From Puteibacter caeruleilacunae (lineage in GTDB: Bacteria; Bacteroidota; Bacteroidia; Bacteroidales; Prolixibacteraceae), in contig SJCO01000015.1 in the NCBI GenBank assembly GCA_005217565.1, positions 62,001-126,000 on the forward strand: a stretch of DNA of 64,000 nucleotides, in the 5' to 3' direction. A program made the position numbers and the translations under genes. Under the pieces are notes generated by a model, which was not told the origin of the DNA, did not search any database, and was given only the letters and a program-made list of their open reading frames with translations. Of the stretch, positions 14,301 to 23,361 are shown piece by piece (the stretch's first letter is position 1; each line of letters starts with the position of its first letter).

Positions 14301-14425
14301 AGATGAAACGAACATAACTTTTTATCATCCCATACTACACTCTCAAGTGGATGGTTGAAATCTATGTAAGTTCCTGAATGTATTAAATATTTTTAATCAT
14401 TCAGTTATCAATAAAATTTAAACAG
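14301..14425 (+). promoter_or_regulatory. Repeated leader element, copy A (before the MFS transporter)
   Basis: First of three related elements ending exactly at a start codon. It opens with a four-codon ORF, ATG AAA CGA ACA TAA (14303-14317). Hairpin 1 pairs ATCATCC (14324-14330) with GGATGGT (14349-14355). Hairpin 2 pairs CTGAATG (14374-14380) with CATTCAG (14398-14404) and continues inward as ATTAAA/TTTAAT. Between them is the shared block 'TATGTAAGTTCCTGAATGT'. The end, ATTTAAACAG, abuts the ATG at 14426. I infer a cis-acting RNA. Confidence 0.6.
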
Positions 14426-15769
14426 ATGAATCAAAATTATAATAAGGCACGACTATTTGTTGCAAGTTGCCTGGCATTGTTAGTTACATCGTTAACTTTT
14501 GCAATGCGCGCTAAAATTGAAGAAGTTTTTGGTAGCCCTATAGCAAGTGGTGGTTTTGGGCTTTCTAAAGAAGAAATTGGCTGGGCTTTTGGTCCGGCAT
14601 TTTGGGGTTTTACTGCAGCCATGATTCTTGGTGGATTAATTATTGACATTGTTAAAACCAAGAACATTGTACGCTCTGCATTTTTCTTTCATTTAATCGG
14701 TGCAATTACTCTTTTATTTGCCAATAGCAAAGGCACACTATTTCTAGCCAATGTTTTCATTGGTTTCGGAAATGGATGCGTGGAAGCGGCCTTAAATCCG
14801 TTAATTGCAACAATTTTCCCTAACCAAAAAACAAAAATGTTGAATCGTTTCCATGTTTGGTTCCCAGGGGGTATTGTAATTGGAGGTATTTTAGCTTGGT
14901 TAATGATGGACCAAATGCAACTGAGTTGGCAAATTTATGTTGCGATGCTTTTCATTCCATTGGCAATCTATGGATTCTTGTTCTTCGGACAAAATATTCC
15001 TGAAACAGAACGAGTACTTAGTGGTGTTTCGTACAAGGATATGATTAAAGCAACTGGAGCTCCTGTGGTACTAATGATCGCGACAATATTCATGTTTATT
15101 ATTGCAAATGGAATATTTGAACTTCCAGCATCATGGATGTATCTTGCCGCTATCGGAGTCTTATTTATTGGATCAATTATTGAAGGTAAATTCATCAAGA
15201 AAGCAGCATTAATTTTCCCAATCATGTTCTTCTTTATGCTATTAACAGCAGCCACTGAGTTAGTTACAACTCAATGGATGAATGCTCTTTTGGGAGATGC
15301 AGGTATTAATCCAATGCTAATTCTAGTGGTTATTACAGGACTAATGGCAGTTGGTCGATTCTTTGCCGGAGGATTAGTTCACCGTTTCAATCCTTCTGGA
15401 GTATTGCTAATTTCAGCTGTATTCTCAACAATCGGACTTTATGCTATGAGTATAGCGCAGGGAGCAACAATGACAATGGTTGCAGCCATCATATTTGCGA
15501 TTGGCGTATGTTATTTCTGGCCTACAATGATCGGATTTGTATCAGAGTATATTCCTGAAAGTGGTGCACTTGGAATGTCTGTTGTTGGTGGTGCCGGTAT
15601 GGTATCGGTAGCAATGTTCTTACCATTAATGGGTAAAATTATGGATACAGAAGGAACGCAAGTAGCCATGCAAAACCTTGGAATTCTTCCAGCACTGTTG
15701 ATTGTAGGCTTCGGAGCTCTATTCTTTGTATACAAGAACAGAAAACCAGTTGAATTATCTGGAAAATAA
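14426..15769 (+). CDS. MFS family transporter (sugar)
   Basis: The 447-residue protein is made of about 12 hydrophobic segments with no signal sequence. An MFS-like loop after the third helix and the second-half loop 'GRFFAGGLVHRFNPSG' (about 312-327) mark the two halves of a major facilitator. Glycine-rich helices 'FGNGCVEAALNPLIATIFP' and 'GGAGMVSVAMFLPLMG' are like those of the FHS/sugar-permease group. Placed between the isomerase and a cytoplasmic oxidoreductase, it most likely imports the product of periplasmic glycoside cleavage. Copy A of the leader element ends at its ATG, so expression is probably tuned at the RNA level. Confidence 0.88.
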   Translation: MNQNYNKARLFVASCLALLVTSLTFAMRAKIEEVFGSPIASGGFGLSKEEIGWAFGPAFWGFTAAMILGGLIIDIVKTKNIVRSAFFFHLIGAITLLFANSKGTLFLANVFIGFGNGCVEAALNPLIATIFPNQKTKMLNRFHVWFPGGIVIGGILAWLMMDQMQLSWQIYVAMLFIPLAIYGFLFFGQNIPETERVLSGVSYKDMIKATGAPVVLMIATIFMFIIANGIFELPASWMYLAAIGVLFIGSIIEGKFIKKAALIFPIMFFFMLLTAATELVTTQWMNALLGDAGINPMLILVVITGLMAVGRFFAGGLVHRFNPSGVLLISAVFSTIGLYAMSIAQGATMTMVAAIIFAIGVCYFWPTMIGFVSEYIPESGALGMSVVGGAGMVSVAMFLPLMGKIMDTEGTQVAMQNLGILPALLIVGFGALFFVYKNRKPVELSGK

Positions 15770-15786
15770 CCAACAAAAATTTTAAA

Positions 15787-15910
15787 CAGATGAAACGAAC
15801 ATGAATTTTCATTATCCGAAAATACACACACGCGGATGATTAAAATTTATGTGAGTTCCTGAATGTCCTCTACTTTTTTGAACATTCAGAAATCAAAAAA
15901 TTTTAAACAG
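15787..15910 (+). promoter_or_regulatory. Repeated leader element, copy B (before the cytoplasmic oxidoreductase)
   Basis: Second copy. Mini-ORF ATG AAA CGA ACA TGA at 15790-15804. Hairpin 1 pairs ATTATCC (15811-15817) with GGATGAT (15834-15840), with one G-T pair. Hairpin 2 pairs CTGAATGT (15859-15866) with ACATTCAG (15882-15889), 8 perfect bp. The 21 nt running through the mini-ORF start (15775-15795) are repeated exactly at the true gene start (15896-15916). The element sits only 17 nt after the MFS stop codon, inside a likely operon, which favours action in RNA rather than as a promoter. Confidence 0.62.
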
Positions 15911-17044
15911 ATGAAAAAGATAAGACTTGGAATGATGGGTGGTGGTATTGGCGCTTTTATTGGCGATGCTCACCGTCGTGCTTCTAGAATAACAAATGAC
16001 TATGATCTTGTTGGTGGTGTGTTTGATGTTGATTACGACAAAGCATTAGAGTTCGCACAACAACAAAATATCGATAGCAACAGAACATATGCTACTATTG
16101 ATGATTTTATCAATGGAGAATTAGCTCTTCCTGAAGAAGAAAGAATCCAGGCAGTTTCGATAGTTACTCCAAACTTTTTACACTACAGTTTTGCAAAGAA
16201 ACTATTGGAGAACAATTTCCATGTCATTTGTGAAAAACCGATGACTACAACTGTTGAAGAAGCTGAAGACCTTGAAAGAATAGTAAAAGAATCAAATCTG
16301 ACCTTTTGTTTGACTCATACGTATACTGGATATCCAATGATTCGTCAAATGAAAGAACTTATCAAAGAAGGAGTTTTAGGTGACATTCAGCGTGTGGACG
16401 CGCAGTACTATCAAGGATGGATTAACTCCATCATTCATGGTACAGACTCAAGAATTACAGGTATCTGGCGCCTAGATCCAAAACATGCAGGAATTAGTAG
16501 TTGTATGGGGGATATTGGAGTACATGCCTTCAACCTAATTGAGTATACAACCGGACTTAAAGTGCAAGAGGTATTGTCTGACCTTAGTAGTGTAAAGGAA
16601 GATGTACAACTGGATCTTGACGGAACCGTTCTTCTTCGCTTCAACGATAAGCTAAAAGGCGTAATCCGCGCCAGTCAGGTTGCCGCGGGAGAAGAAAATA
16701 ACCTAAGCATTGGTGTTTATGGATCAAAAGCAAGTTTGAAGTGGGAACAGGAAAATCCTAACTTCCTATATCTTATTAGCGATTCAGAACCAACAAAAGT
16801 TTACAAACCTGCACATGGATATAATAGTACATTTGCAGAAGAAAGTCACGTAATGCCTTCGGGACACCCTGAAGGAATTTACGAAGCATTTGGAAACCTT
16901 TATAAAGGAGCTGCGAAAGCTATCCGTTCTCAGGATCTTCACGATGGTGAATTCCCAACAGTTACAGATGGTGTTCGCGGGATGAAATTCATTTATTCTG
17001 TAGTTGAATCAAATGCAAAAGGTAACACTTGGACTAAAATTTAA
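15911..17044 (+). CDS. Gfo/Idh/MocA family oxidoreductase (cytoplasmic)
   Basis: I start this gene at the ATG at 15911 (377 residues), giving the usual compact N-terminus MKKIRLGMMGGGIGAFIG; an in-frame ATG at 15863 would add 16 residues translated from the hairpin of the leader element. The Rossmann glycine motif is at residues about 9-15 and the catalytic-lysine motif CEKPMTTT is near residue 110. There is no Tat signal, unlike the two upstream paralogues. It is the cytoplasmic NAD(P)-dependent partner, probably reducing the imported keto sugar or oxidising a downstream intermediate. A strong terminator follows at 17055. Confidence 0.88.
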   Translation: MKKIRLGMMGGGIGAFIGDAHRRASRITNDYDLVGGVFDVDYDKALEFAQQQNIDSNRTYATIDDFINGELALPEEERIQAVSIVTPNFLHYSFAKKLLENNFHVICEKPMTTTVEEAEDLERIVKESNLTFCLTHTYTGYPMIRQMKELIKEGVLGDIQRVDAQYYQGWINSIIHGTDSRITGIWRLDPKHAGISSCMGDIGVHAFNLIEYTTGLKVQEVLSDLSSVKEDVQLDLDGTVLLRFNDKLKGVIRASQVAAGEENNLSIGVYGSKASLKWEQENPNFLYLISDSEPTKVYKPAHGYNSTFAEESHVMPSGHPEGIYEAFGNLYKGAAKAIRSQDLHDGEFPTVTDGVRGMKFIYSVVESNAKGNTWTKI

Positions 17045-17054
17045 GTAGCATATA

Positions 17055-17087
17055 TCCAGAGGGAATTCAATTTTCCCTCTGGATTTT
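17055..17087 (+). terminator. Terminator of the sugar locus, 13 nt before the GT2 start
   Basis: TCCAGAGGGAA (17055-17065) pairs perfectly with TTCCCTCTGGA (17073-17083) around a 7-nt loop, followed by TTTT (17084-17087). The next start codon is at 17100, so this hairpin could also act as an attenuator for the glycosyltransferase genes. Confidence 0.82.
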
Positions 17088-17099
17088 AATTGGCGTAAA

Positions 17100-18008
17100 A
17101 TGATATCACTGGTAGTACCCATATTTAATGAAGAAGATTTAATCGACGAATTACTTCGCCGGGTAGTAAACGCATTGGAGCAAACAAATGTTCCCTTTGA
17201 GGTTATTACTGTAGACGATGGTAGCAAGGATACCAGTCTGAACAAACTTCTTCAATGGCATCAGAATGATAGGCGCATTAAGGTATTGACGCTTTCACGC
17301 AACTTTGGACATCAAGCAGCATACACTGCAGGGATTGATTATGCTGAAGGCGATTATATAGCAATGATGGATGGAGATTTACAAGATCCACCTGAGTTAC
17401 TACCTCAAATGTATAACATGCTTTGTTCTGGTGAATATGATATCATTTGTGGCTTAAGAACAGATCGCAAAGAAACTGGTATTCGCAAACTTTTAATCAA
17501 GGGATTCCACAGGGTATTCAGAACTGGATCTGGTTCTGTTGCCAATACTGGTAATTTTTCAATGCTAAATAAAAAAGCGACTGACGCTTTTCGTGATCTT
17601 AAGGAGAAAACCAGATATTTACCAGGGCTCCGTAATTTCATTGGTTTCAAACAAGGTAATATTGAATATGAACGCGATGAACGTTGGGCTGGGACTCCCA
17701 AGATGAGCATCTTTAAATTATTCACACTTGCCGCCGATGCAATTTTCTCATTCTCAAAATTTCCAATTAAGTTCTGTCTATACATTGGACTTTTGGGTAT
17801 TATCATATCCTTTGCTGCAGGACTTTATATTCTTTTTTCCAAGCTCCTCGGATTGGCTCCATTGGGTTGGTCATCCACTATGACCAGCATATTCTTCCTA
17901 GGTTCAATTCAATTAACATTCCTTGGAGTGTTAGGCGAATATGTATTTCGTATTTATAAAGAATCACAAAACCGCCCCATTTACATTATAAAAGATTTTT
18001 ATTCATAA
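17100..18008 (+). CDS. Glycosyltransferase family 2, polyprenyl-phosphate type (GtrB/DPM1-like)
   Basis: The 302-residue protein has a GT2 domain with the expected motifs: 'VVPIFNEED' (about 4-12), 'VDDGS' (about 39-43), 'SRNFGHQAAYTAG' (about 64-76), a DxD-type 'DGDLQDPP' (about 89-96) and 'RWAGTPKMS' near 195-203. Two C-terminal transmembrane helices (about 225-250 and 260-285) are typical of enzymes that load a sugar onto undecaprenyl phosphate at the inner face of the membrane. The next gene, a GT-C type membrane enzyme, is the natural user of such a lipid-linked donor. The start follows a terminator by 13 nt and no promoter is evident. Confidence 0.87.
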   Translation: MISLVVPIFNEEDLIDELLRRVVNALEQTNVPFEVITVDDGSKDTSLNKLLQWHQNDRRIKVLTLSRNFGHQAAYTAGIDYAEGDYIAMMDGDLQDPPELLPQMYNMLCSGEYDIICGLRTDRKETGIRKLLIKGFHRVFRTGSGSVANTGNFSMLNKKATDAFRDLKEKTRYLPGLRNFIGFKQGNIEYERDERWAGTPKMSIFKLFTLAADAIFSFSKFPIKFCLYIGLLGIIISFAAGLYILFSKLLGLAPLGWSSTMTSIFFLGSIQLTFLGVLGEYVFRIYKESQNRPIYIIKDFYS

Positions 18009-18021
18009 TTGACAGTAATTT

Positions 18022-20055
18022 ATGCGCCACCTCAAAATAGATAAGATATTATTCTTCCTCCTTTTGGCACTTTCTCTTGTTGTATTATATACATACAGCA
18101 TAGATGCTGGTATATCTGGAGATGAAAAAGTACATCATCTGCAAGCAGAAAAGGTCGTAGATTACTATCAATCTTTTGGCAAAGACAGGACAGCGCTTAA
18201 CACTCCAAAGACCAACCTTAAATACTATGGTCAATCGTTTGATAATCTTGCTGCCTTAACCGCAAGAATATTTGACATTGATGATGTTTATGACTTAAGG
18301 CATCGAATGAACTCTATAGCAGGCTGGTTGATTATTGTATTTACGGCACTTATTGCAATTGAAATATCAGGCACAACAGGAGGAATAGTAGCTATTATTT
18401 TTCTTCTTGCCTCACCCCGCTTCATCGGGCACTCCTTCAACAACTTAAAGGATATTCCATTTGCCTTAGGTTATATAGCCTTTATTTATTTCATGATTCA
18501 GTTCCTCAAGAATCCATTAAAAGCAGGTAATAAAACTATAACTGGACTCATTCTTGCAATAGCATTTACTATCGGAATACGCCCTGGAGGATTTATTCTA
18601 TTATGTTATCTCGTTTTATTTATCACTATTTGGTGGATCCTACAATATCGCAAAAAGCAAATCACAAAAGGCGAGTCAATTAACCTTATAGTCAAGATTA
18701 CAGCAACAGTAATTCTAGGCTACTTAATTGGTCTATTATTTTGGCCCTATGCACTTGAAAATCCTTTTATAAATCCAATTAAATCGCTTCAAATAATGTC
18801 TGATTATCCAGTACGAATCAGACAATTATTCTCAGGGAACATTTATTGGTCAGATCAACTACCTTGGAGCTATATCCCCCATTATATGCTCATAACGATT
18901 CCTGTTTTTATTATTATTTCAAGTATTAGTTATATTGTAACTAGTTCATTTTTCAGTATTAAAAAAACACCCCTACTAGCACAAAATTTTATACTTTTCA
19001 CCATAGCATTCCCTCTATTATTTCTTTTTATCAAGGGATCAAATGTTTATGGAGGCTGGAGACATTTTATCTTTATCTACCCTCCAATTATTGTATTTGG
19101 AGCATCATCTATTGGACTCTTATTAAAACAATTGAAAAACATTTTTGCAAAAACAATAATTGTTTTCATAACAATAGGAGGACTCATTGCTCCTTTTTCT
19201 TTCATTGTTCGAAATCATCCATTAGAATATACTTATTTTAATAAGCTTTCTGGTGGAATTGAACATGCTAATGGACAGTTCGAAACAGATTACTACTACC
19301 ATAGTGTTCGACAAGCGACAGACTGGCTACGTAATGAAATCGAACAATATCAAGATAAAACGAAAATAACGTCCAATTTCTGGATTGACTGGTACTTCAG
19401 AGGAGATCCTCATATTGAAACCTATTACACAAATTATTACACCAGAGGTAATCAAGATTGGGATTATGCAATTTTCTGTAATGCGTACACCAATCCTTAT
19501 CAATTACAAAATAAGCTATGGCCACCAGCAAATACAATTCACACAATTGATGTTGATGGAGTACCTGTTTGTGCAATAGTTAAACGCATTAGTAACGATG
19601 ATTTCAATGGATATGAACTAATACGTTCTGAGCATTATGAACAAGCAATATCATACCTACAGAATGCATTAAAAACCAATCCGGGGAATGAAGCGGCCTG
19701 TATTAATTTGGCCAAAGCTTACATAAACACAGGAAGATTAGAAAAAGCCCGGGTAGCAATCAACCAATGCCTTCATGTTTTACCTGAATACGAGATTGCT
19801 CTTATGCTTCTCGCTGATTTAGAGGAAAAACTCAACAATTCAGATAAAGCAATTATTGCATTAGAGCGGATACTTAAAGCTAATCCATATTATCTGAAAG
19901 CATATGTAAAACTTGCATCGGTTCATGTTAGAAACGAAAGCTACCAGGTTGCGTTGCAATATTTAGATAAATGCCTGAGTATTAGTAAAAATTACTCAGC
20001 TGCAAAGGAATTAAAAATAAGAATTAACGAAGATTTTAGTACCTTTGAGGACTGA
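18022..20055 (+). CDS. GT-C (PMT/ArnT-like) membrane glycosyltransferase with C-terminal TPR repeats
   Basis: The 677-residue protein has about 11 transmembrane helices over residues 8-400, an early periplasmic loop with acidic residues 'ISGDEKVHH' (about 31-39) at the place of the catalytic aspartate of GT39-type enzymes, and a soluble C-terminus. Residues about 535-670 hold three to four TPR repeats ('YEQAISYLQNALKTNPGN', 'GRLEKARVAINQCL', 'SDKAIIALERILKANP', 'YQVALQYLDKCLSI'). It probably transfers a sugar from a polyprenyl carrier to a protein or envelope glycan outside the inner membrane; the TPR part may recruit substrates. The acceptor is unknown; the small protein downstream is a candidate. 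Confidence 0.8.
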   Translation: MRHLKIDKILFFLLLALSLVVLYTYSIDAGISGDEKVHHLQAEKVVDYYQSFGKDRTALNTPKTNLKYYGQSFDNLAALTARIFDIDDVYDLRHRMNSIAGWLIIVFTALIAIEISGTTGGIVAIIFLLASPRFIGHSFNNLKDIPFALGYIAFIYFMIQFLKNPLKAGNKTITGLILAIAFTIGIRPGGFILLCYLVLFITIWWILQYRKKQITKGESINLIVKITATVILGYLIGLLFWPYALENPFINPIKSLQIMSDYPVRIRQLFSGNIYWSDQLPWSYIPHYMLITIPVFIIISSISYIVTSSFFSIKKTPLLAQNFILFTIAFPLLFLFIKGSNVYGGWRHFIFIYPPIIVFGASSIGLLLKQLKNIFAKTIIVFITIGGLIAPFSFIVRNHPLEYTYFNKLSGGIEHANGQFETDYYYHSVRQATDWLRNEIEQYQDKTKITSNFWIDWYFRGDPHIETYYTNYYTRGNQDWDYAIFCNAYTNPYQLQNKLWPPANTIHTIDVDGVPVCAIVKRISNDDFNGYELIRSEHYEQAISYLQNALKTNPGNEAACINLAKAYINTGRLEKARVAINQCLHVLPEYEIALMLLADLEEKLNNSDKAIIALERILKANPYYLKAYVKLASVHVRNESYQVALQYLDKCLSISKNYSAAKELKIRINEDFSTFED

Positions 20056-20102
20056 AATCATAAATTGAATCAAATATCTATTAATAAATTTTAAAAACGA
20101 AG

Positions 20103-20363
20103 ATGATGAGAAAATTTGCACTTAAGGCAATGATGATGGCAATGTTGTCATTTGGAGGATTTTCAATGGTAAATGCTCTTCCTCAGTACGATGATTCAGT
20201 TACTGATACGATTTCTATTGATGATATGGATCCTATCCTCCATACAGATGAAGAAGAAACTGGGGACGAAGGTGGTAATACAGGGATGATTGCCGTTATT
20301 GCAATTGTTGTAGTTGTTGCAGGAGCTGTAGGTTACAAAGTAGCTACAAAAAAGAAAAAATAA
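20103..20363 (+). CDS. Small membrane protein: signal peptide, acidic linker, C-terminal TM and lysine tail
   Basis: The 86-residue product has a signal peptide (about 1-25, ending NALP), an acidic Asp/Glu/Ser/Thr linker (about 27-58, including 'DEEETGDEGG'), a single hydrophobic helix (about 61-80, glycine, isoleucine and valine rich) and a basic end, ATKKKK. This three-part C-terminus looks like a stop-transfer or sorting tail. A second ATG lies one codon in. I do not recognise a family. It closes the GT2/GT-C cassette, 47 nt downstream, and its Ser/Thr-containing linker could be a glycosylation target or the protein a subunit of the glycosyltransferase; both are inference. Confidence 0.7.
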   Translation: MMRKFALKAMMMAMLSFGGFSMVNALPQYDDSVTDTISIDDMDPILHTDEEETGDEGGNTGMIAVIAIVVVVAGAVGYKVATKKKK

Positions 20364-20406
20364 GCAAAACTGTATAGTACCATTAATTGATTATGGTGAT
20401 CAATAA

Positions 20407-20446
20407 AAACGAGCGTGATTCTTATGTATCACGCTCGTTTTATTTT
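20407..20446. terminator. Bidirectional terminator between the small membrane protein and argH
   Basis: AAACGAGCGTGAT (20407-20419) pairs perfectly with ATCACGCTCGTTT (20428-20440), a 13-bp stem with an 8-nt loop, T-rich on both sides. It serves the rightward cassette and the leftward argH gene. Confidence 0.88.
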
Positions 20447-20450
20447 AATA

Positions 20451-21785
20451 TTATCGAAGAAGATTGGCTATTGCTTGCTCAACCTTATCAAAATTAAACG
20501 CATCAAATATCTCGTCGAACTTTTCAACAATACCTTCATTGCAAAGCTGACCGATACTTCCTTCATGAGAATGAGCTACCGTTCTTTCTGGATCAAAATC
20601 ATTATTCATAATTTTCTCTCCTACCTGACGATAAGCATCTCTAAACGGAACCCCTTCAAGAACAAGTTTATTTACCTCTTCTACGCTAAACACGTATTTA
20701 TAACGATCATCCTCAAGGATAGAATCTTTTACCTCTATATTTTCAATGGCGTATTGCGCAATAGACAAACAACTTTTCAATTCCTCAAATGCAGGAATAA
20801 AAACTTCCTTTATAATCTGTAGATCTCGGAAATAACCACTTGGGAGATTATTAATCATCATTGTAATCTGACCTGGAATCCCCTGAATGCGATTACAATG
20901 AGAACGAATCAGCTCAAATACGTCAGGATTCTTTTTATGAGGCATAATACTTGATCCTGTTGTTAATTCATCTGGTAGACTTACAAATCCAAAATTCTGA
21001 CTCATATATAAACACACATCATAAGCCATTTTTGATAAAGTTGCCGCAACTGATGACAAAGCGTACGATACAACTTTTTCCGTTTTTCCTCTACCCATTT
21101 GTGCATAAACGACATTATAGTTCATTGCATCAAATCCTAGTAGCTGGGTAGTCATTGAACGATCCAGTGGAAATGAAGAACCATAACCTGCTGCCGAACC
21201 AAGTGGATTCTGATTAGCAACTCGATAAGCCGCTTGTACAAGGTGCAAATCATCAGCCAAACTCTCGGCATATGCCCCAAACCACAAACCAAAAGAAGAA
21301 GGCATCGCTACCTGCAAATGTGTATACCCTGGCATCAAGACTTCCTTGTGTGCCTCACTTTGTTTTATTAACAAAGTAAAGAACTCACGAACCTGACCTG
21401 CCAAATCCTTTAATTCAGAACGGATATATAATTTTAAATCAACCAATACCTGATCATTTCGGGAACGCCCACTATGAATCTTTTTTCCAGCTTCTCCCAA
21501 ACGTTGAATTAGCATCATCTCCACTTGTGAGTGAACATCTTCAATGCCATCTTCAATTACAAACTCTCCATTCTCAATTTCTTTATAGATTTGCTTAAGT
21601 TCACGCTGAACTTCTTTCAATTCAGCATCTTCCAGCAAATCAATTTTATTGAGCATCTGAGTATGCGCCAGCGATCCCAACACATCATACTTTGCAAGAT
21701 AAAGATCAAGTTCTCGATCCTGTCCTACAGTAAAATCTTCTATTAATTTATCTACGGATATTCCCTTATCCCAAAGTTTACTCAT
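20451..21785 (-). CDS. argH: Argininosuccinate lyase
   Basis: This 444-residue protein is the last enzyme of arginine biosynthesis, splitting argininosuccinate into arginine and fumarate in the cytoplasm. The fumarase/aspartase superfamily signature TGSSIMPHKKNPD (about 271-283) is intact, with the catalytic serine in the flexible loop, as are 'GRSRNDQV' (about 102-109) and 'GYTHLQVAMP' (about 145-154). The length and the compact N-terminus (MSKLWDKG) fit the family. Other arg genes are not nearby. A TACCTTTG -7-like box lies at 21840-21847 on this strand. The gene ends 11 nt from the shared terminator. Confidence 0.95.
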   Translation of the reverse strand: MSKLWDKGISVDKLIEDFTVGQDRELDLYLAKYDVLGSLAHTQMLNKIDLLEDAELKEVQRELKQIYKEIENGEFVIEDGIEDVHSQVEMMLIQRLGEAGKKIHSGRSRNDQVLVDLKLYIRSELKDLAGQVREFFTLLIKQSEAHKEVLMPGYTHLQVAMPSSFGLWFGAYAESLADDLHLVQAAYRVANQNPLGSAAGYGSSFPLDRSMTTQLLGFDAMNYNVVYAQMGRGKTEKVVSYALSSVAATLSKMAYDVCLYMSQNFGFVSLPDELTTGSSIMPHKKNPDVFELIRSHCNRIQGIPGQITMMINNLPSGYFRDLQIIKEVFIPAFEELKSCLSIAQYAIENIEVKDSILEDDRYKYVFSVEEVNKLVLEGVPFRDAYRQVGEKIMNNDFDPERTVAHSHEGSIGQLCNEGIVEKFDEIFDAFNFDKVEQAIANLLR

Positions 21786-21839
21786 GATAACTTACTTTGC
21801 TTTAATATTTCAAAAAAGGTCGGCTATTTTCAGGTATCG

Positions 21840-21847
21840 CAAAGGTA
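21840..21847 (-). promoter_or_regulatory. Candidate -7 box of argH
   Basis: On the minus strand this reads TACCTTTG, an exact TAnnTTTG match 55 nt before the argH start. No TTG is found at the usual distance, so the promoter is tentative; no arginine operator was recognised. Confidence 0.4.
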
Positions 21848-21937
21848 ACAATTAAAAATCAATTCATAAGATCCTTAAGTTATCCATTATGAGGTAATGT
21901 ATTAAAACAGATTATCTTAACAATCAAGCTATTTTTA

Positions 21938-22384
21938 TTACTCTGGAAAAACAGGGATATTTTGCAAATATTCATATGATTGTTGATCATAATCGATCAA
22001 ACAACAATAATGCTGCAATCCGTTGGTAACAACCAGGTAAGGCACTTTCAACTGCATGTTATATCTTGCAATCTGATCAAAGGTATCCTGACTAATTCGC
22101 ACATTCGGTGCCTTACATTCAACAACCAGAAAAGGAAGTCCTTTTCGATTATACACCAGTAGATCACATCTCAATGGATTTTGATTAATCATAACCAATC
22201 TTTCAACTCCAATCAGCGACATTGGAAACTTTTTTTCTTGATTCAGGAATTTAATAAAATTCTGACGCACCCACTCCTCTGGTGTTAGCACCAAAAACTT
22301 TTTACGAATCTCATCGAAGATTGCTAGTTTATTACGATCCTTTTTAATTCTAAACTGATATTCAGGTAGATTTAATCGTTGCAT
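21938..22384 (-). CDS. Orphan type I restriction R-subunit N-terminal-like nuclease domain (HSDR_N)
   Basis: The 148-residue protein matches in plan the HSDR_N domain, a PD-(D/E)xK nuclease fold. The likely active-site residues are visible: D in 'PLRCDLLVY' (about 72-80) and E-x-K in 'FLVVECKAPN' (about 86-95), followed by 'QIARYNMQLKVPYLVVTNG'. No helicase, HsdM or HsdS gene is nearby, so it is not a restriction system. Stand-alone copies of this size are common in Bacteroidota beside holA-type housekeeping genes, where the role is unknown; DNA repair or replication is a guess. It is divergent from the AMP nucleosidase gene. Confidence 0.8.
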   Translation of the reverse strand: MQRLNLPEYQFRIKKDRNKLAIFDEIRKKFLVLTPEEWVRQNFIKFLNQEKKFPMSLIGVERLVMINQNPLRCDLLVYNRKGLPFLVVECKAPNVRISQDTFDQIARYNMQLKVPYLVVTNGLQHYCCLIDYDQQSYEYLQNIPVFPE

Positions 22385-22466
22385 AGATACATGTCATTAA
22401 TTTTTGCGAAAACTAAGCTTAATTTTTTAAATTAGATAAATCTTTGATGCATTATCTTAAAAAAGC

Positions 22467-22590
22467 AGGATGAAACAAACATGATTTTTCCTCATTCAAA
22501 GCTACAACATAAGAATGATCGAAAGTTTATGTGTTTCATTAGGTGTATTTGAATTTTTTGAGTATTCATAAATCAAAAAATTTTGGACAT
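22467..22590 (+). promoter_or_regulatory. Repeated leader element, copy C (before AMP nucleosidase)
   Basis: Third and most diverged copy. Mini-ORF ATG AAA CAA ACA TGA (22470-22484). Hairpin 1 pairs TCATTC (22492-22497) with GAATGA (22513-22518); relative to copies A and B a C-G pair is replaced by T-A, a compensatory change. Hairpin 2 (about 22540-22568) is weaker, kept largely through G-T pairs. The 3' block AAATCAAAAAATTTTG is almost as in copy B. The element ends at the ATG at 22591. Confidence 0.58.
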
Positions 22591-23361
22591 ATGAAAACGA
22601 AAGAAGAAATTGTTGAGAATTGGCTTCCGCGATATACAGGCAGGCGATTAGATGAATTTGGAGAGCACATCTTACTAACCAATTTTCATCACTATGTAGA
22701 TTTATTTGCTGAAAAGTTTAATGTCCCTGTAGTTGGTGAAGATCTGGTTATGCCAAATGCTTCGGCTAATGGAATTACAATCATCAACTTTGGCATGGGC
22801 AGTCCTAATGCAGCAACAATAATGGACCTTCTTAGTGCCATTCAACCACAAGCAGTTTTGTTTTTAGGCAAATGCGGAGGTTTGAAGCGAAAAAACAAGC
22901 TGGGTGATCTTATCCTTCCAATTGCTGCAATACGCAGTGATGGTACATCTAATGACTACCTACCTCCTGAGATTCCGGCACTTCCAGCATTTAGTCTGCA
23001 GCGTGCAATATCGTCGACCATCAAGCGTCACCAACGCGATTATTGGACGGGAACCGTGTTCACAACCAACAAACGAGTATGGGAATACGATGATCGTTTT
23101 AAAAAATACTTGCAAAAAACCCGCGCAATGGCAATTGATATGGAAACTGCCACTATATTTGTCGTCGGATTCTATAATCAGATTCCAACAGGTGCTTTAT
23201 TGCTGGTTTCAGATCAACCAATGATATCATCCGGAATTAAAACATCGGATAGTGATCAGAAAGTAACTCGCATGTATGTCGAGGAACATTTGAATGTCGG
23301 CATTGATGCTCTTTCAGAAATTATTAACGACGGGAGCTCTGTTAAGCATCTAAAATTTTAA
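22591..23361 (+). CDS. amn: AMP nucleosidase / nucleoside phosphorylase family
   Basis: I start this at the ATG at 22591 (256 residues, MKTKEEIVENWLPRYTG); a GTG start at 22543 would add 16 residues encoded by the leader element. The protein is a PNP/UDP-phosphorylase-fold enzyme: 'INFGMGSPNAATIMDLL' (about 61-77), 'VLFLGKCGGLKRKNKLGDLILP' (about 87-108) and the late 'MAIDMETATIFVVG' (about 178-191) with the purine/ribose-binding Met-Glu. This is the compact Bacteroidota form of AMP nucleosidase, which splits AMP to adenine and ribose 5-phosphate. It heads a plus-strand run with holA and the rhomboid gene. Confidence 0.85.
   Translation: MKTKEEIVENWLPRYTGRRLDEFGEHILLTNFHHYVDLFAEKFNVPVVGEDLVMPNASANGITIINFGMGSPNAATIMDLLSAIQPQAVLFLGKCGGLKRKNKLGDLILPIAAIRSDGTSNDYLPPEIPALPAFSLQRAISSTIKRHQRDYWTGTVFTTNKRVWEYDDRFKKYLQKTRAMAIDMETATIFVVGFYNQIPTGALLLVSDQPMISSGIKTSDSDQKVTRMYVEEHLNVGIDALSEIINDGSSVKHLKF

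Follow-up and report, generated by a model that had tools for sequence, protein, structure and literature searches.

A mobile two-hairpin element and probable leader inserted at gene start codons in Puteibacter caeruleilacunae

The analysed stretch of DNA (hereafter the window) comprises 64,000 nucleotides of Puteibacter caeruleilacunae (GCA_005217565.1, contig SJCO01000015.1, positions 62,001 to 126,000 of the forward strand), and carries three copies of a short element on the plus strand, each ending at the start codon of a gene. In copy A, the left ATGAA (14303–14307), the insertion target and former start codon as judged from the empty sites of other copies, opens a 4-codon ORF, MKRT* (14303–14317), and is followed by a 123-bp inserted stretch (14308–14430) that ends with the ATGAA at 14426, the start codon of an MFS transporter gene (14426–15769; MFS_1 by Pfam). 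In copy B, the left ATGAA (15790–15794), again opening an MKRT* ORF (15790–15804), is followed by a 121-bp inserted stretch (15795–15915) ending with the ATGAA at 15911, the start codon of a Gfo/Idh/MocA oxidoreductase gene (15911–17044; GFO_IDH_MocA by Pfam). Copy B lies 20 bp after the stop codon of the transporter gene, consistent with an operon. In copy C, the left ATGAA (22470–22474) opens the ORF MKQT* (22470–22484) and the inserted 121 bp (22475–22595), a more diverged and probably older copy, end with the ATGAA at 22591, the start codon of a gene of the nucleoside phosphorylase/nucleosidase superfamily (22591–23361; PNP_UDP_1). This superfamily holds AMP nucleosidase, the identity that the earlier note had given for this gene.

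Folding of the three copies placed hairpin 1 at 14314–14365 in copy A (arms 14314–14330 and 14349–14365), at 15801–15850 in copy B (arms 15801–15818 and 15833–15850) and at 22481–22530 in copy C (arms 22481–22497 and 22513–22530). This hairpin is longer than first described, consisting of ATGAATTTT..., a large loop and ...AAAATT(C/T)AT, and is followed by a GNRA-type bulge and by GTTC facing GAAC. In copy A, the bulge GTAA (14366–14369) precedes GTTC (14370–14373), which faces GAAC at 14310–14313, while in copy B the bulge GTGA and GTTC occupy 15851–15858 and face GAAC at 15797–15800. Hairpin 2 follows at 14374–14404 in copy A and at 15859–15889 in copy B (arms 15859–15866 and 15882–15889). 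The observation in the earlier note, three leader copies with the same order of mini-ORF, hairpins and start codon and with base-pair covariation, is confirmed. C-G to T-A changes like the one that it had seen between copies A and B and copy C recur in the family, as 11 of 35 rows from this genome (two off-target rows left out) carry compensated double changes in the upper stem of hairpin 1, amounting to 18 cells at 4 pairs.

To determine whether the three copies could be due to chance, we searched the 8.0-Mb genome with the exact left-end pattern ATGAAACRAACATRA, which occurs 51 times, whereas its reversal occurs 0 times; chance is excluded. A BLAST search with a 119-nt query returned 48 matches, two of them short antisense pieces; copies A (79%) and B (94%) are among these matches, while the more diverged copy C was found by the pattern only. 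Members of the family were also found in Prolixibacteraceae, Marinifilum, Marinilabilia, Saprospiraceae and Flavobacteriaceae. The exact 20-mer was absent from the 394 other genomes of a 395-genome sample, although present in named Saprospiraceae and Flavobacteriaceae, so that prevalence outside Marinilabiliales is patchy or undersampled. A covariance-model survey of the 395 genomes, which scored only 12 candidates per genome and says little, gave one weak match (genome G202) besides this genome. The counts from a pattern search include chance hits, since the backward control gave 7 matches and some of the listed loci (numbered here with an L), such as L062 and L071, do not look like elements. 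A total of 137 copies with a recognisable GTT-type motif and a right ATGAA were kept, including 33 of the 51 or more in this genome.

Empty sites prove that the copies are insertions. Of eight insertions tested in the genome G026 (L093 was represented only in part), five align across the joined flanks to element-free orthologous sites in three congeners, in 15 alignments and without a gap at the junction. L099 had a weaker spanning match (71–73%), and L093 and L096 had none; at L098, one of the three empty sites reads ATCAA rather than ATGAA. In addition, two loci in the genus of another genome, G029, differ between species by exactly one element at ATGAA, one a 120-bp unit and the other a 135-bp unit that is aligned as a 136-column gap because the neighbouring copy differs by one base, and one start codon carries different element types in two species (L428/L445). 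Tandem copies share a single ATGAA. A filled site reads ATGAA followed by the inserted ACGAACATGA...nnnATGAA, and the element encodes no protein. The left end ACGAACATGAA... and the right end ...CAGATGAA are not inverted copies of each other, so that the terminal inverted repeats of a MITE derived from a DDE transposon are absent.

These results bear directly on the reading of the copies as a ligand-binding leader (riboswitch) serving a set of metabolic genes, which was not supported. Among 127 element–gene pairs, only two pairs of downstream genes passed the homology filter, both being orthologues in closely related genomes, and even the loops are nearly identical between many copies of one genome. 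No Rfam match reached the gathering score in the window, and four loci with elements gave only sub-threshold matches up to E 1, for example RNA-OUT at 26.4 bits against a cut-off of 41. A transposon-like origin, named beforehand as a result that would count against the initial reading, was in effect obtained, though the element was matched to no known transposon. The interpretation in the earlier note is partly supported: a structured element ending at a start codon, repeated in related genomes, with covariation and below every Rfam threshold, was upheld. A classical cis-regulatory RNA (riboswitch, attenuator or ribosomal leader) that spread with its genes by descent or duplication would account for the conserved RNA-like architecture, the covariation, the position before the start codon and the mini-ORF, but is refuted as the origin by the empty sites, the exact presence/absence differences and the unrelated downstream genes. 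The near-identical loops within one genome, the lack of an Rfam match above threshold and the insertions at ATGAA sites that are not start codons also speak against it; it would need a ligand or a regulator as a function, and we consider it very unlikely.

Copies sit on start codons more often than non-coding ATGAA sites do. In this genome 25 of 29, in G026 6 of 12 and in the other genomes 66 of 89 copies were on start codons, against 19 of 65, 123 of 474 and 134 of 438 for non-coding ATGAA sites in the window, G026 and G029, respectively, the null having been computed with a changed margin. Insertions also occur at ATGAA sites that are not start codons (25 of 137; for example L098 and L104). 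The trinucleotide CAG precedes the left ATGAA in 13 of 31 copies of this genome, against 1 of 36 starts, and is unexplained. Matching of the left flank to the right end showed no excess in this genome (12 of 31), while the 13 of 89 in other genomes, against 4.3 shuffled, include tandem copies that the filter missed.

The two hairpins are conserved, the second in most forms pairing the bases before the new start codon with a segment after GTTC. Guide/right-end covariation was tested on 31 distinct combinations, of which 12 were fully paired against 4.0 when shuffled, with 0 of 10000 shuffles as high, although for copies with several ATGAA candidates the best-pairing one was taken, which slightly favours this test. 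Of 94 bulges of up to 6 nt, 92 end in GNRA. In G026, the foot of the second hairpin is mismatched at one position in 6 copies. The top strand is the more stable in 87 of 137 copies, which is not decisive as to which strand folds.

Given that the same insertion is shared between species at several loci, we compared the change in the element with that in the adjacent sequence. At eleven intact shared insertions, the element differs at 37 of 1216 positions (plus 47 gap columns), against 574 of 3325 third codon positions and, for nine of them, 47 of 528 positions in the 60 bp upstream. Without L207/L224 and the second copies of L430/L431 and L384/L441, the counts were 20/921 against 396/2465 and 40/470, so that the conclusion stands over all eleven with weaker contrast. 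In four pairs more alike to each other than to any other copy in the collection, the counts were 8/478 against 249/1430 and 20/231. However, three shared pairs (L418/L433, L422/L434 and L397/L382) have equally or more similar copies elsewhere, and at L397/L382 six congener loci have no element, so independent insertion may explain part of the similarity. Two shared copies have changed appreciably, namely L207/L224 (8/101 plus 7 gap columns; third positions 36/182, upstream 7/58) and L384/L441 (9/96 plus 21 gap columns; third positions 78/282), and one further shared copy (L426/L437) has lost its left part in at least two species. The slow change nevertheless fits a role as a leader, and the element is probably under selection as such. 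A purely selfish repeat, whose insertions at start codons survive only because they keep the reading frame and a start codon, with no host function, is an alternative. Precise insertion with a duplicated ATGAA makes such insertions nearly harmless, nearly identical copies in G026 are on start codons in only 6 of 12 cases, and the degenerate, changed and possibly independent copies above are in its favour. Against it, the element over all eleven copies changes far more slowly than third codon positions and the adjacent upstream sequence, and the conserved part includes hairpin 1, which a mere initiation region would not need; we regard this alternative as possible but doubtful.

The mobilising enzyme was not found. 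Left ends without a nearby right end were inspected by eye for an autonomous copy with a gene inside, and no mobility gene was recognised among the ORFs of L110 and L063; among 955 ORFs of the loci collected at that stage, the 25 largest clusters contained no recognisable mobility gene and a Y1 search found none. Y1 transposases are common (82 of 100 genomes) but not linked to the element, as no element ends were present in 32 Y1 loci or in 20 further, partly overlapping Y1 stretches, a set that leaves out most Y1 loci of the other genomes. The two Y1 genes of this genome carry no element ends and lie among other repeats, and no TnpB was found in it (6 of 14 controls gave a match). Strand counts made by hand for G026 gave 5 same and 9 opposite to replication, but in the larger set orientation follows the genes (67:28 against 157:77), so the replication-strand bias expected of single-strand insertion was not seen. 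Movement as RNA rather than as single-stranded DNA, through a reverse transcriptase acting in trans, might be suggested by the GNRA bulge and G-U pairs and by nine RVT_1 hits in this genome (two being pieces of one gene), six of them in a multi-copy unit. However, no element ends lie near any of these genes and the excess of G-T over A-C pairs is weak once one inherited position is removed (11 against 8), making this route unlikely.

Taken together, we favour with reasonable confidence a non-autonomous mobile element of about 95–140 bp that inserts at ATGAA, very often the start codon of a gene, and then serves as the 5′ leader of that gene. The analysis itself establishes the precise insertion, the lack of terminal inverted repeats and of an encoded protein, the two conserved hairpins, the enrichment at start codons and the much slower change of shared copies than of nearby sequence. 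It is inferred, from sequence alone, that the native start codon now opens a 4-codon ORF (ATG AAA CGA ACA TGA) that ends incoming translation and that the gene is started afresh at the A/T-rich initiation region and ATG of the element, which would thus work as a portable translation-initiation leader. Least certain is the inference that movement goes through a folded single strand handled by an enzyme supplied in trans, most likely of the IS200/IS605 (Y1 HUH) kind, which rests on the architecture of the element (a short fixed target on the left, hairpins near both ends, no inverted repeats) and remains unproven. A further reading, which we offer only tentatively, is a new class of mobile genetic element built as a portable 5′ leader that inserts at start codons, turns the old start into a decoy mini-ORF with an in-frame stop, supplies its own structured translation start and is then kept by selection as a regulator, its moving enzyme and possible trans-acting partner being of an unrecognised kind. 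If the leader role holds, a mobile element has repeatedly rewired how genes are translated in several Bacteroidota families, giving unrelated genes the same structured leader, which would be a route to new regulation by insertion without breaking the gene. The element is small, abundant, apparently recently active in some species and fixed in others, so that both its movement and its effect on genes are open to direct testing. It is also a warning that apparent riboswitch candidates can be mobile repeats.

No description of this element was found in the literature searched, and it was compared with several known systems. MITEs, such as those of Porphyromonas gingivalis (PMC4596501), are likewise short, non-autonomous and dispersed in Bacteroidota, but the present element has no terminal inverted repeats. 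HEARO inserts at ATGA/GTGA. The IsrB TAM is NTGA (PMC9581776). An ATGA-type target and a structured nucleic acid are shared with these HEARO/IsrB-IscB elements; no HEARO match above threshold was obtained in the window or in the four loci searched, the RRXRR protein was found in 0 of 61 genomes in a search in which no control gave a match either, and no TnpB was found in this genome. REP elements with TnpAREP (RAYT) are also non-autonomous dispersed hairpin repeats that may move as single strands (PMC8266576), but here the bulge at the hairpin foot is GNRA-type, no GTAG tetranucleotide occurs in the three window copies, the target is a precise ATGAA, the element is not linked to a RAYT gene, and the Y1 genes inspected have no element ends, several of those in these genomes lying among unrelated repeats. 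The best reading is an undescribed element like the PATEs (palindrome-associated transposable elements) of Haloquadratum (PMC3119063), which also lack terminal inverted repeats, have palindromes near both termini, are too short for a transposase, have a 4–5 bp targeting sequence on the left and show strain-specific insertions. No parent IS605-type transposon carrying tnpA or tnpB with these ends was found among the loci inspected, and the present element differs from PATEs in its length of 95–140 bp with a very constant left end, its GNRA-bulged hairpin, the ATGAA at both ends, its concentration on start codons and its slow change after insertion.

To establish whether the three leader copies described in the earlier note exist, their limits were re-read from the sequence, and all three were found to be present as described. 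Copy A opens at 14303 and its gene starts at 14426, copy B opens at 15790 with its gene at 15911, and copy C opens at 22470 with its gene at 22591. The left end, ATGAAACRAACATRA, has 51 exact places in the 8.0-Mb, 220-contig genome, while the reversed pattern has none. A search with a 119-nt query returned 48 matches, most of them full length and 77-100% identical, although some full-length matches are lower and two are short antisense pieces. Copy C is too diverged to be found with that query.

Copies begin abruptly at ATGAAACGAAC after unrelated flanks and end at ATGAA, which is usually a start codon. Within the element, GAAC is followed by a long hairpin (ATGAATTTT, a loop often containing ACACACA-like sequence, and AAAATT(C/T)AT), a GNRA-type bulge, GTTC facing GAAC, and then a second hairpin. 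The bulge is GTGA in 43 and CGAGA in 24 of the parsed copies, and by our count 92 of 94 bulges of up to 6 nt end in GNRA, with longer forms containing GAGAGCGNAGCG. In most forms outside type 1, the bases after GTTC (CATnnn) pair with nnnATG at the right end, so that the start codon sits in the foot of a hairpin. This pairing covaries, as 12 of 31 distinct combinations are fully paired compared to 4.0 in shuffles, with 0 of 10000 shuffles as high. Type 1, the form of copies A and B (copy C looks like a diverged member), has CTGAATGT/ACATTCAG instead. In the upper stem of hairpin 1, 11 of 35 rows from the genome under study carry compensated double changes, 18 cells at 4 pairs, although these count sequences and not events, and the left 20 bases of most rows of the alignment (A1) were chosen by pattern and so say little about the lower stem. 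Several type-1 copies leave a 16-codon in-frame extension (in the window at 15863-15910 and 22543-22590), such as M(Y/S)S(N/T)FLNIQKSKNFKQ, upstream of the gene start, so automatic gene callers may start the gene inside hairpin 2. Copies of the element also often carry a second palindrome inside a hairpin loop (for example CCCGATAG/CTATCGGG-like, CCTGCC/GGCAGG or CCGCCAGCTGGCGG; loci L066, L078, L143, L163, L218, L383, L424 and L438), as if a smaller repeat targets the loops.

To determine whether the element is mobile, the flanks of eight insertions in one further genome, G026, were joined and searched in its genus. Five sites align without a gap at the junction to orthologous, element-free sites in three congeners, giving 15 alignments in all, and at one locus, L098, the target is not a start codon. 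The copies in this genome (loci L093-L105) are nearly identical, yet one position of the second hairpin's foot varies on either side (A/C/T opposite T/G/C), leaving mismatches in 6 copies while most of the rest is unchanged. In the genus of another genome, G029, two loci compared between genomes differ by one element at ATGAA, a 120-bp unit at L430/L431 and a 135-bp unit at L384/L441, and one gene start carries different element types in two species (L428/L445). Tandem copies share one ATGAA, and the left and right ends are not inverted repeats. The element is a real, widespread and apparently undescribed mobile element.

Of 137 parsed copies, 97 end at the start codon of a reading frame, 7 lie within 60 nt of one, 25 do not, 7 are tandem and 1 is uncertain. 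Start codons account for 25 of 29 parsed non-tandem copies in the genome under study, 6 of 12 in G026 and 66 of 89 in the others, whereas among non-coding ATGAA sites only 19 of 65 (window), 123 of 474 (G026) and 134 of 438 (G029) are start codons. The excess in the genome under study is strong (p about 3e-7), while that in G026, whose copies are nearly identical and so probably recent, is not significant (p 0.09). This is what selection after insertion would give, but a target preference is not excluded. Orientation of the copies follows the genes (67:28 against 157:77).

Upon insertion, the native start becomes ATG AAA CGA ACA TGA, a 4-codon ORF with its own stop, and the gene gains a new start behind an A/T-rich stretch. 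Whereas insertion is demonstrated by the empty sites and this rearrangement of the gene start follows directly from the sequence, its effect on the gene is inferred. The Bacteroidetes promoter element, TAnnTTTG, is not present in the three copies.

Given that some insertions are shared between species, we compared the divergence of the element with that of the adjacent sequence. Eleven intact shared insertions were found, nine from flank comparisons within the G029 genus (16 locus pairs) and two from the homology comparison of downstream genes. Together, the element differs at 37 of 1216 positions, with 47 further gap columns, compared to 574 of 3325 third codon positions of the gene and, for the nine insertions where it can be compared, 47 of 528 positions in the 60 bp upstream (p about 3e-44 and 6e-7, respectively). 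The contrast is strongest at L424/L383 (0/123 against 87/419) and in the second copy of L430/L431 (0/98 against 64/396), and weakest at L207/L224 (8/101 plus 7 gap columns against 36/182) and L384/L441 (9/96 plus 21 gap columns against 78/282). Six of the seven pairs first checked, plus L422/L434, could be set beside all other copies collected, while L429/L442 fell out because its copies are identical. In four pairs (L109/L439, L070/L438, L424/L383 and L203/L226), the two copies are closer to each other than to any other copy, including a private palindrome in L424/L383, and for these four the figures are 8/478 in the element, 249/1430 at third codon positions and 20/231 upstream. In three pairs (L418/L433, L422/L434 and L397/L382), other copies are as similar or more so, and at L397/L382 six other congener loci lack the element, so repeated insertion or loss is possible. 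A further shared copy has lost its left part in L426 and L437. Since classing pairs by similarity favors conserved ones, all eleven are included in the totals. The regulatory reading of the earlier note, which had described a leader element before start codons, is partly supported in that it survives in a new form, probably as a domesticated mobile leader and not a riboswitch.

The distribution of the element was examined using exact sequence searches. The exact 15-mer is present in 35 of 100 genomes, including the genome under study, although the backward control gave 7 hits, indicating that a few of these are chance matches. A 20-mer scan of GTDB genomes returned at least 110 stretches, with records named Prolixibacteraceae, Draconibacterium, Marinifilum, Marinilabilia, Saprospiraceae and Flavobacteriaceae. 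The exact 20-mer is absent from viral contigs and, with one base relaxed, from 394 other genomes of a phylum-wide sample, while in the 37 genomes of the G029 genus a query holding one element gave many further element matches. No Rfam match above threshold was obtained, and literature searches, which covered open-licence PMC articles only, listed nothing that describes the element. The string ATGAAACGAAC occurs in 8 papers, two of them on Capnocytophaga and Porphyromonas, but judging by title and the start of the abstract none is about repeats.

Candidate mobilizing enzymes were sought both within the genome under study and across related genomes, and no linked mobility gene was recognized. 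Y1 genes are present in 82 of 100 genomes, but none of 32 inspected loci nor of 20 further, partly overlapping stretches has the element's ends, and no TnpB match was found in the genome under study, which argues against mobilization of the IS200/IS605 kind. Several of the Y1 (RAYT-like) transposase genes in these genomes sit beside or inside repeats of their own, different for different genes (loci L090, L091, L322-L324, L327, L328, L334, L335, L337 and L338). A separate multi-gene unit is present in six copies in one genome, G000 (C101:6493, C14:1066, C14:219242, C42:8523, C53:44409 and C150:420891; loci L351-L356), comprising paralogous ~190-aa ORFs (where seen), a ~245-330-aa ORF (no Pfam hit in the one copy tested) and a ~335-373-aa reverse transcriptase with a conserved stretch just before it, and no adenine-biased repeat pair typical of a diversity-generating retroelement was seen. 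Among known systems, the closest architecture is that of the IS200/IS605-derived PATEs (PMC3119063). In IS200/IS605 elements, cleavage sites are chosen by pairing with a guide next to the hairpin (PMC8266576), and we infer that in the present element TTC of GTTC could pair with GAA of ATGAA.
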